Below, piece by piece: positions 1 through 59,714 of a DNA stretch of 64,000 bases. The stretch is from assembly GCF_002215035.1 (NCBI RefSeq), contig NZ_NKFP01000006.1, positions 199,083-263,082 on the forward strand, given 5' to 3'. The translations under genes were made by a program, and so were the position numbers. The notes under the pieces were generated by a model. It made no database searches and was not told where the DNA came from. It was given only the letters and a program-made list of their open reading frames with translations. This DNA is from Leptolyngbya ohadii IS1. Lineage in GTDB: Bacteria > Cyanobacteriota > Cyanobacteriia > Elainellales > Elainellaceae. Every line of letters begins with the position of its first letter. The first letter of the stretch is position 1.

Positions 1-53
1 TAGGTGAGCTACGTTGTAAAGACAAATTTCCAGTTGAGTCGCGCCACTCCTAA

Positions 54-247
54 CGCCCCCTAAATTCCCCACTTGTTTTTTGCCGCGCTTGAAGCGCGAG
101 TTGGGGGACTTCCACTCCCTATAGGTTAGGCGATCACCTCCGGAAGCTGTGCAAAGCGATCGAGTCGTTCTATAGGCAGAATACATTCCTGTTCCACAAG
201 AGAAACTGGAAGATTCAAAGTCTCCCAGAATTGGGGATTGAGGGGGC
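54..247. repeat. Diverged MITE-like palindromic element downstream of gcvP
   Basis: The 375 bases left of gcvP hold no credible gene. A CGCCCCCTAAATTCCCCAC arm starts at 54, with an internal hairpin around GCGCTTGAAGCGC, and a rough inverted partner (TTGGGGATTGAGGGGGC) ends near 247. The same arm sequences recur in cleaner copies at 29861-29972, 48541-48680 and 56083-56217, so this looks like an old member of that family. The middle (120-220) is not recognisable. Confidence 0.5.
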
Positions 248-30035: not shown

Positions 30036-31148
30036 TCAGCCGTGCTGCACCAGGGCTACCAGTTCCTCTGCGGTGAGGCTCCGCTTGAGCTGGGTCGATC
30101 GCTGGCGGACAATCTCCAGAACGGACTGTGTTTCCTGGGCATTCAGGAAAACCCCGTGCTGTTGCAAGAGATTCACGATCGCATGGCGTCCAGAATGTTT
30201 GCCAATCGCTAACCGATGCTGCTGCCCGATCTCCGCCGGATCGTAGGGCTGATAGGCAATCGGATTTTTGAGAACCCCATCAGCGTGAATCCCCGACTCA
30301 TGCACAAAAGCATTTTGACCCACGATCGCTTTCCAGGGCGGCACGGAACTTCCGGAGGCTTTGGCAACAAGCTGGGAGAGTTCAATCAGCTGATGGGTGG
30401 CAATTCCCGTTTTAATTCCATAGATCTGCTTTAATCCCATTACCACTTCTTCCAGTGGTGCATTCCCTGCCCTTTCTCCTAAACCATTCACGGTTGTATT
30501 GACGGAAACTGCCCCTGCCTTGACCCCTGCCAGCGCATTTGCCGTTGCCAATCCCAGATCATTATGGGTGTGCATTTCAATATCGATCGTCGTCGAAGCC
30601 ACTAAATCGCGCACTTTTTCATAGGTCATAAACGGGTCAAGAATGCCCACCGTATCGCAAAACCGAAACCGCGACGCGCCCCATTCCTGCGCCTGAAGCA
30701 GAACATCCAGCAGGAAACTAGCATCGGCTCTGGAGGAATCTTCACCGCCGATCGCCACATACAAATCCTGATCTTTGGCATAGGCGATCGTATCGTGCAG
30801 GCGGGCAAACATCTGCCGACGATCCCCCTGAAACTTGACCTGAATTTGAATCTCAGACACAGGGATAGAAATATGCACCCGCGTTAAACCACAGGCTAGG
30901 GATGCCGCAATGTCCGAAATTACTGCCCGGTTCCAGCCAATGAGTTCGGCTTTCAGTCCCAGATGGCGAATTGCCATAATTGCCTGCATTTCTGCCTGCC
31001 CCATTGCCGGAATGCCCACTTCAATTTCCGGTACGCCGATCGCATCCAGGAATTGGGCGATCGCGACTTTCTCTTCTAGCGCAAAGGCAACCCCCGCAGC
31101 CTGTTCGCCATCCCGTAAAGTTGTATCGTTAACCTGGACGAGAGCCAT
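30036..31148 (-). CDS. nifV: Homocitrate synthase
   Basis: The enzyme condenses acetyl-CoA and 2-oxoglutarate to homocitrate, the organic ligand of FeMo-cofactor; 370 residues. The N-terminal motif [16 protein letters not shown] is characteristic, and the metal-site [12 protein letters not shown] region is present, as is [14 protein letters not shown]. The ATG at 31148, with AGGAG in front, is preferred over a much longer reading frame whose N-terminus looks non-coding. NifV lies some 5 kb from cnfR and 11 kb from the end of the main nif gene train, unlike clusters with nifV next to nifZ/nifT. Confidence 0.92.
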
Positions 31149-31532: not shown

Positions 31533-33965
31533 ATGCTGAGTCATCTGCCGCAACGTCTTCGACATGCTGGTATTCCTCTGCGCTGGATGCTGATGGTTCC
31601 TTTTGTGCTGCAAACCGTCAGCACAGTCGCGCTGATTGGGTATCTATCCACTCACAACAGACAGGCAGCAGCGACAAATCTAGCCAATCCTACGCTTCTT
31701 TTTTGTGTATTCACTTTACTGGGGTCGATCGGGCTGAGTTGGCTAACTGCTAAACGCATCATAAAACCGATCGCACAACTCGATCAGGCGAGCCGGGCAC
31801 TGGCAGAAGGGCTATGGCAGAAACCTCTCTCGGAGAAAACGCCGATCGCCGAGCTGAAAAACCTGATTCATTCCTTTAATCGCACCGCAGCACAGTTCCG
31901 GCAATCCTTCGATCGCGTCAAAACAGGATTGGAGCAAAGTGAAGCCCGGTTCCAGAAGCTAGGGGACGCATCACCGGCGGTCATCTACACAGTCGTTGAA
32001 GACCCAACTCAGGGCATTACTCAGTTTGAATACCTGAGTCCCGCAGCGGAAGAAATCCATGAGCTACCGATCGCGAAGCTGATGCAAGACGGCTCACTCG
32101 TTACAGCGCAAATTCATCCAGACGATCGGGGAGGGTATTTGCAGGCGGTTGTCGCCAGCCTTGAAACAATGCAGCCGTTCACCTATGAGTGGCGGATTAT
32201 TACCCCATCGGGCAGGATTAAGTGGCTACAGGCTCATTCCCGTCCTGAACATTGGGAAACCGGGAAAACTGCCTGGCATGGAATTGTAATAGAAGTCACT
32301 GAGCGCAAGCGCGTTGAAGCAGAACGCCGCCAGGCTGAACTTGCCCTGAAACAAACGCTCCAGGAATTGCAGTCCCACATCGACAATTCGCCGCTGGCAA
32401 CGGTTCGCTGGAGTCCGGACTTTCGGGTTGAGTACTGGTCGAAGCAGGCGGAGCATATTTTTGGCTGGAGCGCAGCGGAAGTTCTGGGAAAAACCTTCCA
32501 TGAGTGGCGGTTTGTCTATGAAGAAGATTTAGCATACGTCACGCAAAAAGCAGACGGAGTTCACCCCGACGCAGATCGAATCACCATCAACCGCAACTAC
32601 TGCAAGGACGGGTCGATCGTCTTCTGTGAGTGGTACAACTCTATTCTGTTTGACGAGGCGGGCAATGCGGTTTCCACTTTGTCACTGGTACAGGACATTA
32701 CAGAACGCAAGCGAGCGGAACAGGAGCTTCAGCAGACAAAAGAAGCGGCAGAAGCCGCAAACCAGGCAAAGAGTACTTTTCTGGCAAACATGAGCCACGA
32801 GTTACGCAGCCCCCTGCACACGATTCTGGGGTTTACCCAGCTCATCCAGCGCGATCGCGCCCTTTCTGCCACCCATCAGAAACACCTTCAGCTGATCTAC
32901 AACAGCGGCAACCATTTGCTGAAGCTGATCAACGAAATCCTGGATTTGGCAAAAATTGAGGCGGGAAGGCTAAGCCTGCAAAACCAGCAATTTAACCCGT
33001 TTGAACTGCTCAGTTCCCTGGAGGCGATGTTTAGTCCACAGGCAGCTAGCAGAGGGCTAACGTTTCGTCTTAACGTTCTGCCGAGCGTGCCGCGATCGAT
33101 CATTGCAGATTCACAAAAGCTTCAGCAGGTGTTAATCAATCTCATTGGCAACGCGATAAAATTTACCGCTCAAGGTCGAATCACACTATCCGTCAGTGCA
33201 ATACAGGATGTAGAGCAGGGTGCAGCCACGGCGGGGCGAGGGCTATCTGCCTTAGCAGAACAAATTTCATCGAATCCGCTTGCGGTTATGCTTTGCTTCC
33301 AGGTCGAAGATACGGGCGTGGGCATTGCCTCCCAGGATCTAGACCTGATTTTTGACGCCTTCGCTCAGGCACCCGCAGGGCAGGCACTTCAGGAAGGAAC
33401 CGGACTGGGTCTGACGATCAGCCGCAAACTCGTGGAGTTAATGGGCGGACAGATTACGGTTAACAGCAGGCTGGAACAGGGCAGCACGTTTCAGTTTACA
33501 CTCCCCGTACAGATCGCCGATCCCGCTCCCCGCCTTTCACCCAGGCAGCGCATCATCGGATTGGCTCCCCACCAGCCCACCTACCGCATTCTCGTCGTCG
33601 ATGACCAGGCAGACAATCGACTTTTGCTCGTTCACCTGTTTAGGTCACTGGGGTTGGAAGTTCGAGAAGCCAGCACGGGACTGGAAGCGATCGACCTCTG
33701 GAAGGCATGGCAGCCCCACCTGATCTGGATGGACATCAGAATGCCGGAACTGAACGGAGACGAAGCGACACGACAAATTCGAGCCGCAGAACAACAGGCA
33801 GGCAACGCACCTATCATTATCGCTCTGACCGCACAAGCTGCCGAAGCCGATCGCACACTCGCCCTGACCGCAGGCTGCAATGATTACATCAGTAAGCCAT
33901 TTCAGGAGGAGATGCTATTGAATACGATGAAAAGATATCTGGGAATACAGTACGTTTACGGCTGA
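31533..33965 (+). CDS. Membrane-bound PAS hybrid histidine kinase
   Basis: 810 residues. Two N-terminal membrane helices (about 19-40 and 54-73) are followed by a HAMP-like stretch, two PAS domains (about 140-255 and 280-395), HisKA with His422 (NMSHELRSPLH), HATPase (about 530-660, GTGLGLTIS) and a complete receiver (686-800) with Asp734 (IWMDIRMPELNG) and Lys in SKPF. The two membrane helices are close together, so little is exposed outside. Its receiver is a useful comparison for the broken receiver at 8.9 kb. It is divergent from nifV; a functional link is not shown. Confidence 0.9.
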   Translation: MLSHLPQRLRHAGIPLRWMLMVPFVLQTVSTVALIGYLSTHNRQAAATNLANPTLLFCVFTLLGSIGLSWLTAKRIIKPIAQLDQASRALAEGLWQKPLSEKTPIAELKNLIHSFNRTAAQFRQSFDRVKTGLEQSEARFQKLGDASPAVIYTVVEDPTQGITQFEYLSPAAEEIHELPIAKLMQDGSLVTAQIHPDDRGGYLQAVVASLETMQPFTYEWRIITPSGRIKWLQAHSRPEHWETGKTAWHGIVIEVTERKRVEAERRQAELALKQTLQELQSHIDNSPLATVRWSPDFRVEYWSKQAEHIFGWSAAEVLGKTFHEWRFVYEEDLAYVTQKADGVHPDADRITINRNYCKDGSIVFCEWYNSILFDEAGNAVSTLSLVQDITERKRAEQELQQTKEAAEAANQAKSTFLANMSHELRSPLHTILGFTQLIQRDRALSATHQKHLQLIYNSGNHLLKLINEILDLAKIEAGRLSLQNQQFNPFELLSSLEAMFSPQAASRGLTFRLNVLPSVPRSIIADSQKLQQVLINLIGNAIKFTAQGRITLSVSAIQDVEQGAATAGRGLSALAEQISSNPLAVMLCFQVEDTGVGIASQDLDLIFDAFAQAPAGQALQEGTGLGLTISRKLVELMGGQITVNSRLEQGSTFQFTLPVQIADPAPRLSPRQRIIGLAPHQPTYRILVVDDQADNRLLLVHLFRSLGLEVREASTGLEAIDLWKAWQPHLIWMDIRMPELNGDEATRQIRAAEQQAGNAPIIIALTAQAAEADRTLALTAGCNDYISKPFQEEMLLNTMKRYLGIQYVYG

Positions 33966-36578: not shown

Positions 36579-38252
36579 TCAACGATCGCTGACGGTCTCC
36601 AGCGAATTCTCGATCGCCATTTTCATAAAGTCCCCGTCTAAGATCTGGCGCAAAAGCTGCTGATCCTTCGCGTTGACCTGCAATCGACCGTTTTCAATAT
36701 CCCGCACCCAGCTTTGGCTCTTTCCGACATAATTGGCAAGTTCTCGCTGGCTAATCTGCAACTTCTTCCGGGCATTGACAATTTGCTGTCCCGTGAGCGG
36801 CAGCGGACCACTGTGTTTTCGGTGAGGCGATCGTCCTGCGGCAAATTCCTTGTGTCTTGTTTTTCGAGACTGCTTTGATGCAGATTGGGCAGACTGAGCT
36901 TTCCAGCCTTCGGGCAATTCAAAGCAAAGCAAACGTGCCTGCATTAATCGATTCCACTTATCGCGCGGTGCTGCATCTGTCAGACGGTGTTCGCTGCTGC
37001 CGTCGTTCGTCCAAAAGTCCAGTGCCGCCTCCGCATCGTCCGGCAGATCGACCAGCTTTGCCCAGAGGGGCTGAATTTCGATCGGGTAGGTGACAGGGTC
37101 AAACTGCGGTTTCAGTCCATAGTGGTTCAGCATTTCCAGATCGCTTTCAAACGATCGCAGCAGTCGTTTCCGTTCTTCTCGCTGGGTTGAAGCTTGCAGC
37201 AGTTTGGCTTCGCCATAGGCAATTCGCATTAGCGTAGGAATCGTTAAGCGCTGTTCGACGCCCATTTTGGTTTTAAACAGCAGCCATAGCATAATTCGGG
37301 CTGCGCCTTCGTGCTGCTGCCAGATGCTCGTAACCGTCCAGAGCAGAGATTTGGGCAGACTGCTGTACTGATAAAAAGCCGTGCTATTTTTTGCCCCTCG
37401 CTGATTGAGAAAATACTTCGCCCACTCTCCTGCCCGGATGCGAAAGGTTAGCCCCGTTAAATGCTTGTAGCCGAGTTCGTCCTCTTGAAAATGATGCTGA
37501 ACTTCGAGTAGATGCCATACCCGACTCTGCTCTAGCCTGAATCCTGGCACTCGCCCCTGCTGAAACCACTGAAGATCAAGAACGAGTTTACAGGGCTGCT
37601 GCACCAGATCGTTAATCAGGGTTAGCTTGGCAAGCCGACTCAAATCCTTGCGCTTTTCCAGTCCTAGATAGTCCTCAATCTGGCGATCGCTAATCACAAA
37701 TTCACTGTCCCAGGGCTGCTCCGAGCCGATCGCATGGGCTGCATAGATCAAGTGCAAACAGGCAACACGCACATCCCATCTTGCCATTTCCGCTTCGGCG
37801 GTTTCTTGATCAAGCAAAGCCCCTGAGTCGGTCTCACAGGTGAAGGCAAAGGCGATCTTGCCCCGTCCACTGTTGACCTGCCGCTCATAGCGAAACTGTC
37901 CAGCCGCGTCGGTTTTCCAGGGCAGGGATTGACGCTGCGCCAGCACATTACAGGCTTCCCAAATGACGATCGCCGACGCAAACGGACTGCTCTTTCCATT
38001 CACAAACAGATCGGGACTGGGCGGAATTCTCACGGTCGTTTTACTGCGCCCTTTCTTTGCTTGCAGAGGCATAGGCGGCAAATCGATCGCACAAGCCGTA
38101 ACGCATCGGGGGACTTCCGCGTCACCCTGGCAGTCATTACAGATCATTGGATCGATCCACAGTTCTCCAGCTTCAGGCTTAATTGCATTCTGTGGGCATT
38201 GTGGAATACAGTCGCCGCACTGATTGCAGCGATTTGTAATTGTATGTGCCAT
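36579..38252 (-). CDS. cnfR: CnfR/PatB-type nif transcriptional activator
   Basis: 557 residues. The N-terminal ferredoxin-like module has eight cysteines in two clusters (Cys9/12/15/19 and Cys38/41/50/54), fit for two [4Fe-4S] clusters. A long middle region of unknown fold follows. The C-terminus (about 495-545) is a helix-turn-helix of Xre type (ISQRELANYVGKSQSWVRDIENG). This architecture is that of CnfR, described in Leptolyngbya boryana as the activator that turns on nif genes at low oxygen, and of PatB in heterocyst formers. The clusters presumably sense oxygen. It is transcribed from the long region 38253-38963, away from the PTPA-CTERM gene. Its DNA target is probably in the nifB-nifP region. 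Confidence 0.92.
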   Translation of the reverse strand: MAHTITNRCNQCGDCIPQCPQNAIKPEAGELWIDPMICNDCQGDAEVPRCVTACAIDLPPMPLQAKKGRSKTTVRIPPSPDLFVNGKSSPFASAIVIWEACNVLAQRQSLPWKTDAAGQFRYERQVNSGRGKIAFAFTCETDSGALLDQETAEAEMARWDVRVACLHLIYAAHAIGSEQPWDSEFVISDRQIEDYLGLEKRKDLSRLAKLTLINDLVQQPCKLVLDLQWFQQGRVPGFRLEQSRVWHLLEVQHHFQEDELGYKHLTGLTFRIRAGEWAKYFLNQRGAKNSTAFYQYSSLPKSLLWTVTSIWQQHEGAARIMLWLLFKTKMGVEQRLTIPTLMRIAYGEAKLLQASTQREERKRLLRSFESDLEMLNHYGLKPQFDPVTYPIEIQPLWAKLVDLPDDAEAALDFWTNDGSSEHRLTDAAPRDKWNRLMQARLLCFELPEGWKAQSAQSASKQSRKTRHKEFAAGRSPHRKHSGPLPLTGQQIVNARKKLQISQRELANYVGKSQSWVRDIENGRLQVNAKDQQLLRQILDGDFMKMAIENSLETVSDR

Positions 38253-56245: not shown

Positions 56246-57799
56246 CTAAACGTGAGAACCCACTGTTTCCCGCTCGATCGCCTTCTGCCCAGACTGATTC
56301 ACAGACTGATTCTGGAACCATTGGTCATAGAACTCTCGCGCCACCTTTTCGATCACGTCGTAAGCTTCCACGACCTGCAATCCGGCTTCTCGCAGTTCCG
56401 CTTTGGGACATTCGCCTACTTTGGAAACAAGGATGGCTTTACAGTCGGCGATCGCCTTAATTACAAACTCCAGCGTTGCGTCTTCGCCATAGCCGCCCTG
56501 ACAGTACTGGTCAATCTTGCGGTGTCCGACGAATTTGGCTTCGTTGGCATCCACTTCAAAAATCTGGAATTCCTTCGCGTGACCAAAGTGTTGGTTAACG
56601 ATGCCGCCGCCCTTCGTTGCTACAGCAACCAGGATCTTCGGACTATCCTTGACTCGTTCACTGGGCTTCACTTTAGCTTTCGCCTGCTTAATCTCTTCCT
56701 TGAATTGTTCGATGCCCTGATGGACTTCCTGCCGCAGTTCCAGATCGTATTGCGGAGCCATCTCCATGAATTTCTCTTTGGTAAACTCCTGGCTGCGATC
56801 TTCGCCCAGCAGACCCACCGCATCCGCACGGCATTGGCGGCAGTGGCGCATCATTTTCATATTGCTGTCGGCGCATTCGTCCTGGAGCTTCTTCAGTTCC
56901 TTCGGCGTGGGTCCACGCTGTCCATTTAGACCATAGTATGTGCCGTGTTCCGGAGCAGAAATCAGCGGCATGATGTTGTGCAGGAATGCCCCGTTCTGAC
57001 GGATTACCTGATCGACTTCTACAAGGTGGTCGTCGTTAACGCCAGGAATCATCACCGAATTGACTTTGCAGAGAATATCCGCTTCCCGCAGGGCTTGCAG
57101 ACCTTCCATTTGCCGCTCGTGCAGAATCCGAACTGCTTCAATGCCTTTGTAGCGTTTGCGGCGATAGTGAACCCAGGGATAAATCTTCGTGCCGATCTCC
57201 GGGTCAACCATGTTGATCGTGATGGTGACGTGATCGACATTCAGTGCCTTAATTTTATCCACATGATCGGGCAACATCAGCCCGTTTGTAGACAGACAGA
57301 GCTTAATATCGGGAGCCTTATCCGCAATCAGTTCAAAGGTGCGGAAGGTCTTTTCTGGATTCGCGAGGGGGTCGCCCGGTCCCGCAATTCCCAAAACCGT
57401 CATCTGGGGAATCTTCCCGGCAATCACCAAAACTTTGTGGGCAGCTTCTTCGGGCGTGAGCAGTTCACTCACCACACCGGGACGGCTCTCATTCGCACAG
57501 TCATATTTCCGGTTACAGTAGTTGCACTGAATATTACAGGCTGGCGCAACCGCAACGTGCATCCGGGCGTAGTGATGGTGTGCCTCTTCGCTGTAGCAGG
57601 GGTGCTTCGATATGCGATCGAGCATTTTCTGATCCATATTCGAGGCTGGACTGCTATTACTGCTACAGCCACAGCTATCGCCGCTCTTTTGCGTTACCGT
57701 ATTTTTGGTAATCGAAATCTCCTGAACTGATCCGATCGTCGTATCCTGAACAGTCTCGGTCTGGGAAGAAAGAACTCCGGAAAAGGGAGGTGGTGTCAT
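56246..57799 (-). CDS. nifB: NifB, FeMo-cofactor precursor synthase
   Basis: 517 residues. The radical-SAM motif is Cys88/92/95 ([15 protein letters not shown]). The C-terminal NifX-like domain (about 385-490, [21 protein letters not shown]) is also present. It makes NifB-co from Fe-S clusters and SAM. First gene of the main nif train; its promoter must lie in 57800-58830, where repeated TTGAGTAC motifs occur. Confidence 0.97.
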
Positions 57800-57886: not shown

Positions 57887-57992
57887 ATATAGCAATCCTT
57901 TCTGTCTTGTATTTGGGGTGCAGGGGTTCCACCCCTGCACGGGGCGAAGCCCCACACCCCCCTTTCTCACAAATCATTTGTGATCGCTATAT
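57887..57992. repeat. Structured palindromic element upstream of nifB
   Basis: Inverted termini ATATAGCAATC and GATCGCTATAT enclose two strong hairpins: GTGCAGGGGT/ACCCCTGCAC (57919-57940) and GGGGCGAAGCCCC (57941-57953). It resembles small non-coding mobile elements of cyanobacteria. It sits about 90 bp upstream of nifB. Confidence 0.8.
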
Positions 57993-58153
57993 CTCGCTTT
58001 GGTTGCAAGCGGTTGTGAGCATATTATCAGTGGCTCAAGTTGAAAGAATGAAATCGGGAATGGGAGTGATTAGCGTTGAGCAATTTATAACAGTTGCCCA
58101 AAACCCGCCCGACTCATTTGCCGCAGGTCAGAGTTATTGAATTCATTAGCGGA

Positions 58154-58798
58154 GTACTCAAATCCCAGAACCCTTGCTATGTCAGCCTCAAAAATTTTTA
58201 TCAGATAGGGGTACGAGTATTTTTTAAATAGGGTGCAAGTATTTCCTGCCTGGGGCAATAGTATTTTGGGTACTCAGGCTAAAGCCTCACGACACAAGGG
58301 CTGAAGGTCACCTTTTGTTATTTCTTGAGGCGATCGAACCTGTACTCAAAACTATCTGAGAAGCAGTTCAGGGCACAGATTTGAACGAATTATTTGGTTA
58401 AGAATTAATAATGAATTGAGACTGCTCAATTCCTGTATCTAAAGTATCACTTTTCCCCAGACAAAGGTGATATCTACAATTTCTTAATAATTTGTTCGCA
58501 CTGAACAAAATGACTTACAAACGGAAGTGTTTGCTACCAAACAATGAATTTGAGTACTGCCCGATCGCCCTCAATTTTGCCTTCAAAATACTGCGACAAA
58601 TCGCTTGAATTCCAGGTTTAAGCTTGAGTACCCAAATACCTGTTCCTATCCTAAAAAATACTAGAACTCTCAACTTAAAATACTCGTTCCCCAACCCCTG
58701 CAAAAAACCGATCGCCGATAAACAATAGGGTTTGAGAGTTGAGTACAACGCTAATCAATCTAATCAGTTTGATGCAGAAATTTCTGCCGCTTGAGTAC
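58154..58798. promoter_or_regulatory. TTGAGTAC motif cluster in the nifB-nifP divergent region
   Basis: Exact TTGAGTAC on the plus strand at 58550, 58624, 58739 and 58791; the reverse complement GTACTCAA at 58154 and 58342, with a near match GTACTCAG at 58270. The two minus-oriented copies face nifB, the four plus-oriented ones face nifP. Chance would give about one copy per 33 kb counting both strands. A CnfR-binding element is the likely function; this is inference. Confidence 0.6.
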
Positions 58799-58847
58799 GA
58801 TCGACCTGATATAAGCAGGAAACCAAGCCGCGTTGTACCCGAAAGCA

Positions 58848-59714
58848 ATGCATCCCTCTCTTAACCTTCTCTGGTCGCCCGTTTCACGTTTCTTTACATC
58901 GATCGCTGGTTCCCAAAATTCTCATTCCAGTTCCCATTCGCAGTTCAACTATTCATTAGATTGTCTGAAGCGTCGATCGGATTCAGAGCTGCATTTCAGA
59001 CCCAGTTCAGGAACAATTTCTGCACTCCCCCAAAAACTGCTCTCTCGCCTATCCTCCTCCAACATCTGGCAGGCATTAATCTGGCAGACCTTACGCGAAG
59101 ACTTTCGCATTATCTTTGAGCGTGATCCAGCGGCGCATCATTGGCTAGAGGTGCTGTGCTGCTATCCCGGACTCCATGCCCTGCTGCTGTATCGACTGAA
59201 CCATTGGCTGCACGCTCACCGTGTGCCGTTTCTCCCGCGATTTCTGGCACACCTGACCCGATTTCTCACCGGAATTGAAATTCACCCTGGCGCAACGATC
59301 GGCAAAGGTGTCTTTATTGATCACGGCATGGGGGTCGTGATTGGCGAAACGGCGATCGTCGGTGACTACTGTCTGATCTATCAGGGAGTCACGCTGGGCG
59401 GCACAGGCAAGGAAACAGGCAAACGCCATCCTACCCTGGGCGATCATGTGGTTGTCGGGGCAGGCGCGAAGGTGCTGGGCAATATTCACATCGGCGACTA
59501 TGCCCGCGTCGGGGCAGGATCGATCGTGCTGCGAAATGTCCCGGCGCACTGTACCGCAGTTGGCGTACCTGGTCGCAATCTCTGCCGTCCCACGGTTGAG
59601 GATTGTCCTTTAGAACATGGTCAAATGCCCGATGCCCAGGCAGTCGTCATGCGCGTTCTGCTCGATCGGATTGAGGCACTAGAGCAGCAGGTTCAACAGT
59701 TAACCCAGTCCTAA
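58848..59714 (+). CDS. nifP: Serine O-acetyltransferase NifP
   Basis: 288 residues from the ATG at 58848. The catalytic left-handed beta-helix with hexapeptide repeats is clear ([47 protein letters not shown]). It makes O-acetylserine for cysteine, supplying sulfur for nitrogenase clusters. The N-terminal 80 residues are Ser-rich and variable. It is the first gene of the divergent unit with nifZ and nifT. Confidence 0.92.

Follow-up and report, generated by a model that had tools for sequence, protein, structure and literature searches.

The Octamer Cluster between nifB and nifP

The region between the divergent nifB and nifP genes of Leptolyngbya ohadii IS1 carries repeated copies of the octamer TTGAGTAC. 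The window, which is the whole 64,000-nucleotide stretch of DNA that was analysed, contains nifB (TIGR01290; positions 56246–57799, minus strand) as the first gene of a minus-strand run in the order nifB-fdx-nifS-nifU-nifH-nifD-nifK-orf-nifE-nifN-nifX-orf-nifW-hesA-hesB, where fdx denotes a ferredoxin gene. The ORF after nifK is unnamed, the ORF after nifX is NifX-associated, and the last two genes are hesA-like and hesB-like, respectively. On the plus strand, a family match identifies a nifP-type serine O-acetyltransferase gene (CysE family, cysE) at 58848–59714. The ATG at 58848 is preferred as the probable start of nifP over the TTG at 58833, and the N-termini of relatives resemble the ATG version. 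The window also contains nifV at about 30051–31139 (minus strand). A protein of 557 amino acids with an N-terminal 4Fe–4S ferredoxin domain and a C-terminal XRE-type HTH is encoded on the minus strand at 36579–38252. This protein was identified as CnfR because of its domain make-up and its linkage to nif genes, and its gene is the sole full-length copy of cnfR in the genome.

Seven copies of TTGAGTAC were counted in the window, at 58154 and 58342 on the minus strand and at 58550, 58624, 58739, 58791, and 32428 on the plus strand. The copy at 32428 lies inside a histidine-kinase ORF and is unrelated. The remainder confirm the initial annotation, which had reported six exact octamers at 58154–58798, two directed toward nifB (minus) and four toward nifP (plus). 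Whole-window shuffles contained 0.98 copies on average and never reached seven. In the whole genome (7,902,459 bp), the octamer occurs 144 times and the reversed control word 170 times; the word is therefore not generally enriched. When 144 sites were placed at random in 20,000 trials, the biggest cluster within 645 bp contained three sites, and the expected number of clusters of six within 645 bp is about 4e-11 genome-wide. The observed six are far above chance, as had been claimed. The search of the window also agrees with the earlier statement that TTGAGTAC is absent upstream of nifH, nifV, and cnfR.

Two Divergent Promoter Modules

The region consists of two divergent, back-to-back promoter modules of fixed geometry, one per operon, together with one extra box, and not of an array in which six equivalent sites are accompanied by weak ones. 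In the nifB module (minus strand), boxes with the core TGAGTAC are located at 58342–58348 (S1), 58270–58276 (S2), and 58154–58160 (S3), with an S1–S2 pitch of 72 bp and an S2–S3 pitch of 116 bp. Three AAATACTnGnnCCCC-type repeats with a 22-bp pitch follow S2 at 58252–58266, 58230–58244, and 58208–58222. S3 is followed by a conserved TAATnAATnnAATAA stretch (58134–58148) and, after 64 nt, by an extended –10 of the form TGnTATAAA (58084–58092). The nifB transcription start is predicted to be near 58077. A G+C-rich inverted repeat (GGGTGCAGGGGTTCCACCCCTGCAC) is present at 57914–57962 in the predicted nifB leader.

The nifP module (plus strand) has the same layout. S1, S2, and S3 are located at 58551–58557, 58625–58631, and 58740–58746, respectively, with an S1–S2 pitch of 74 bp and an S2–S3 pitch of 115 bp. 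The three AAATACTnGnnCCCC-type repeats are found at 58634–58648, 58656–58670, and 58678–58692, again with a 22-bp pitch. S3 is followed by TAATCAATCTAATCA (58752–58766) and by an extended –10 (TGATATAAG) at 58807–58815, 63 nt after S3, and the predicted nifP start is near 58822. The distance from the element to the start site in Leptolyngbya boryana is said to be 76 bp (Tsujimoto, Kamiya and Fujita, 2016), and this agrees with the S3 box, 63 nt, and –10 of the window.

Boxes of the two modules account for five of the six octamers. The S2 box of the nifB module was missed by the exact count of TTGAGTAC, since its TGAGTAC is preceded by C (CTGAGTAC). The sixth octamer, at 58791–58798 between S3 and the nifP –10, lies outside of the conserved module and is an idiosyncratic extra; it was rejected as a module part, as TGAGTA occurs between S3 and the –10 in just 2 of the 134 modules analysed below. 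The initial annotation had also listed several near matches as a larger array of weaker sites. These near matches are real, but they are the S2 box and 22-bp repeats instead: the nifB S2 box (GTACTCA, 58270–58276) is part of GGGTACTC at 58268, and third repeats account for the other two, TACGAGTA at 58212–58219 in the nifB module and ATACTCG at 58680 in the nifP module.

Module Grammar

Upstream of cyanobacterial nifB genes, three copies of the word are found at fixed distances, and a grammar was derived from 134 distinct modules. The order of elements is S1, S2, as many as three AAATACTnGnnCCCC repeats, an A/T tract, GG-TTT, S3, TAATnAATnnAATAA, and the extended –10. The S1–S2 pitch is 70–75 bp. 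The AAATACTnGnnCCCC repeats start near S2+9..11, +31..32, and +53..54, and a pitch of 22 bp was observed in 168 of about 203 intervals. At the score used, at least three repeat copies were detected in 78 modules, two in 44, and one in 11. In each of the 134 modules, the sequence TGnTATAA begins 61–65 nt past S3, compared with at most 1.25 hits per position in shuffled DNA. In an alignment of 55 diverse modules, S2, S3, and TGnTATAA are all invariant, where S2 and S3 were selected by the search pattern and TGnTATAA was not. No conserved –35 was found in these 55 aligned modules. Both modules of the window likewise combine three sites with an extended –10 that lacks a –35.

The S2–S3 pitch was searched from 107 to 137 bp and falls into two classes, 113–118 bp in 85 modules and 124–129 bp in 49, with none of the 134 modules at 119–123 bp. 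The class means of 115.5 and 126.9 bp correspond to 11.0 and 12.1 turns, respectively, at 10.5 bp per turn, and the S1–S2 mean of 72.3 bp corresponds to 6.9 turns. The difference in length is located between repeat 3 and S3 (62 vs 73). On the NifB tree, the short and long classes require at least four changes, two of which are forced by well-supported branches. Both classes also occur in single genomes; G340 has the long class at nifB and the short class on the divergent side, and G379 has the opposite arrangement. The pattern fits the gain or loss of a single helical turn, lengths in between having apparently not been kept. Helical phasing is likely but not proven, because the sequences are related and the independent cases are few. 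Both the grammar of three boxes and 22-bp repeats and the division into two length classes come from the present analysis, and the two-class rule was not found in the CnfR-element literature examined.

Conservation and Specificity

In 56 cyanobacterial loci, TTGAGTAC has a density of 1.44 per kb upstream of nifB vs 0.03 elsewhere in them, and no copies were found in 23 non-cyanobacterial nifB loci. The module was identified by its spacing, with at most one box mismatch, at 40 of 56 cyanobacterial nifB regions (55 loci and the window). A sequence-only profile that spans S2 to the –10 recovered it in all but one of the other 16, for a total of 55 of 56 by the strict pattern or the profile. With this profile, no hit was obtained among 24 non-cyanobacterial nifB loci. 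The element is retained at the orthologues of both nifB and nifP. In lineages whose CnfR-like protein is just 39–42% identical, the module is still recognisable at 40–53 bits. In G022, where nifB is split, neither a full-length CnfR nor a module was found within the 10 kb examined.

Within the L. ohadii genome, the two modules of the window score 107.6 and 96.5 bits and are the only strict three-box modules in 7.9 Mb. A third match to a looser pattern (C6:548653) contains TGAGTAG and gave no profile hit. One other cluster of octamers (three copies in 814 bp, C6:1590162–1590975) was also rejected; its copies fall in ORFs, without module spacing or a profile match, and are thus consistent with chance. 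The next partial profile hits are 29.1 and 25.5 bits. The first is a half-module (repeat 3, S3, and TAAT) at C6:3059730 (L201:1501-1730), about 2.8 Mb from the window, upstream of a TIGR01616 nitrogenase-associated (Spx/ArsC-like) gene. The second, at C6:1892654 (L202:1501-1590), precedes an ORF without a family match.

The half-module has repeat 3 and S3 without S1 or S2, as would be expected if only S3 and the –10 formed the real activator site and S1, S2, and the extra copy were decoys or relics. A published observation that activity persists in part when one of the conserved sites is lost points the same way (PMC8510180). However, more than 110 strict modules from dozens of genera have preserved the three boxes together with their pitches but not most of the DNA between S1 and S2, and this reading is considered improbable.

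Among 390 genomes of the class, the strict pattern matched 78 and the reversed pattern matched one. nifB is present in 76 of these 78 genomes (Fisher p about 7e-43) and a full-length cnfR in 72. The six module-bearing genomes without a full-length cnfR hit are four fragmented or incomplete assemblies, G340, where the hit covers a C-terminal stretch only, and G053. The strict-pattern hits of G053, which lacks nifB, were rejected as a module, as they belong to an irregular TTGAGTACAA-type array with a profile score of just 18.8 bits; this array is located at L144 (G053:C88), in a genome of the same family. The strict modules occupy 116 places, of which 63 aim at nifB within 1.5 kb and 31 aim away on its other side. 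Most of the others that were examined stand in front of a nifP-type gene, which nifV and a NifZ-like ORF commonly follow.

Two further arrangements were observed. At L204:4376-5878, a CnfR-like regulator beside nifV/nifB keeps the HTH without the N-terminal ferredoxin domain, and its genome still has a recognisable nifB module (44 bits). At L134 (G382:C1:3886700-3893300), the module is separated from nifB by about 6 kb of DNA that includes a weak phage-integrase-like ORF. The insert possibly represents a nifB-leader element that is excised during development.

The distribution of the module also bears on a rival reading, in which the boxes would belong to a different nitrogen regulator, most notably NtcA (GTA-N8-TAC) in its usual promoter layout. 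NtcA is general in cyanobacteria and governs their nitrogen genes. The box contains GTAC, and GTAN8TAC is mildly enriched upstream of nifB, with 21 occurrences seen vs 8.7 ± 3.2 expected. The module is nearly confined to genomes with nifB and cnfR, unlike NtcA, and GTAN8TAC is found anywhere from S1 to the –10 in just 6 of the 134 modules. An NtcA-activated promoter, which would carry GTA-N8-TAC at the activator position, was rejected on this low count, and assignment of the boxes to such a regulator is very unlikely.

Probable Assignment to CnfR

The literature describes CnfR as activating nifB and nifP through an element in their upstream regions, and the modules precede these two genes in L. 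ohadii, a cyanobacterium with cnfR. In L. boryana, CnfR recognises motifs I–IX of the nifB/nifP element, a multi-motif element with the same two divergent promoters that is conserved among diazotrophic cyanobacteria (Tsujimoto, Kamiya and Fujita, 2016, cited in PMC5943405). In Anabaena variabilis, three conserved elements upstream of nifB, CS1–CS3, are thought to be CnfR sites (PMC8510180). These elements precede the extended –10 promoters of nifB1 and nifB2, which lack a –35, as in the modules of the window (PMC8510180). Expression of nifB1 fell by 50–75% upon removal of sites (PMC8510180). A figure legend of an additional report gives the conserved word 'TGAGTATA' at three places, which, as printed there, is one letter off TGAGTACA; a TGAGTA-type word at three places is also the arrangement in the window (PMC4284476). 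Two differences are apparent. The window has a second module that serves the divergent nifP, compared with A. variabilis nifB, and the S2–S3 pitch is long at nifB in the heterocystous relatives examined (124–128) and short in L. ohadii IS1 (115–116).

The earlier reading of the octamers as CnfR sites is very probably correct. It is supported by the promoters, the conservation at nifB and nifP, the absence from non-cyanobacterial loci, the co-occurrence with nifB and cnfR, and the published descriptions. The repeats do occur in both orientations within one intergenic region, but they are direct and not inverted within each module, the boxes and repeats are upstream of the predicted start sites, and the –10 position relative to S3 is fixed, so that a function as RNA or DNA structure (leader hairpins or attenuation) in place of protein sites is scarcely credible. 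The region very probably comprises two complete CnfR-responsive promoter modules, arranged back to back as a bidirectional nif control region. The window is filed as a putative new example of the published CnfR element because the position, the number of sites, and the promoter type match the published work.

Proposed Mechanism and Regulon

Under low oxygen and nitrogen starvation, CnfR would occupy the three TGAGTAC boxes of each module and perhaps also the 22-bp repeats. We infer direct contact of the L. ohadii CnfR with the boxes. The boxes and repeats would lie roughly on one face of the helix, where a same-face nucleoprotein assembly may form. This assembly would activate RNA polymerase at an extended –10 promoter without a –35, about 63 nt past S3. 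One promoter would drive the nifB...hesAB operon and the other would drive nifP.

In heterocystous-type genomes (L187–L198, L126, L128, L135, and L136), the module precedes an operon with several unnamed ORFs and a luciferase-like (LLM) monooxygenase. All 12 of the fetched homologues of a small ORF from this operon (family f32 genomes) have a module upstream, at 85–108 bits. In several further genomes, such as G118, G220, G247, G318, and G370, homologues of one small ORF of the LLM operon adjoin cnfR. Membership of the LLM operon and of the TIGR01616 gene in the CnfR regulon is predicted.

A broader proposal is regarded as evenly balanced. The CnfR element may be a rigid nucleoprotein scaffold in which the three boxes and the three 22-bp repeats share one face of the helix and the length between repeat 3 and S3 may change only by one full turn. 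This design would have been conserved throughout the nif cyanobacteria tested, from the most divergent to the heterocyst formers. Its regulon would extend beyond the annotated nif genes to a flavin-monooxygenase (luciferase-like) operon in Nostocales and to the Spx/ArsC-like nitrogenase-associated gene of L. ohadii.

The CnfR element type itself is already published, as motifs I–IX in L. boryana and CS1–CS3 in Anabaena, and in other respects the window shows a known control region in an ordinary, well-preserved form. Efforts to move cyanobacterial nitrogen fixation to other hosts have used CnfR as the activator. The exact grammar of the element, with its boxes, spacings, and –10, would guide the building and trimming of CnfR promoters and the prediction of the regulon from sequence.
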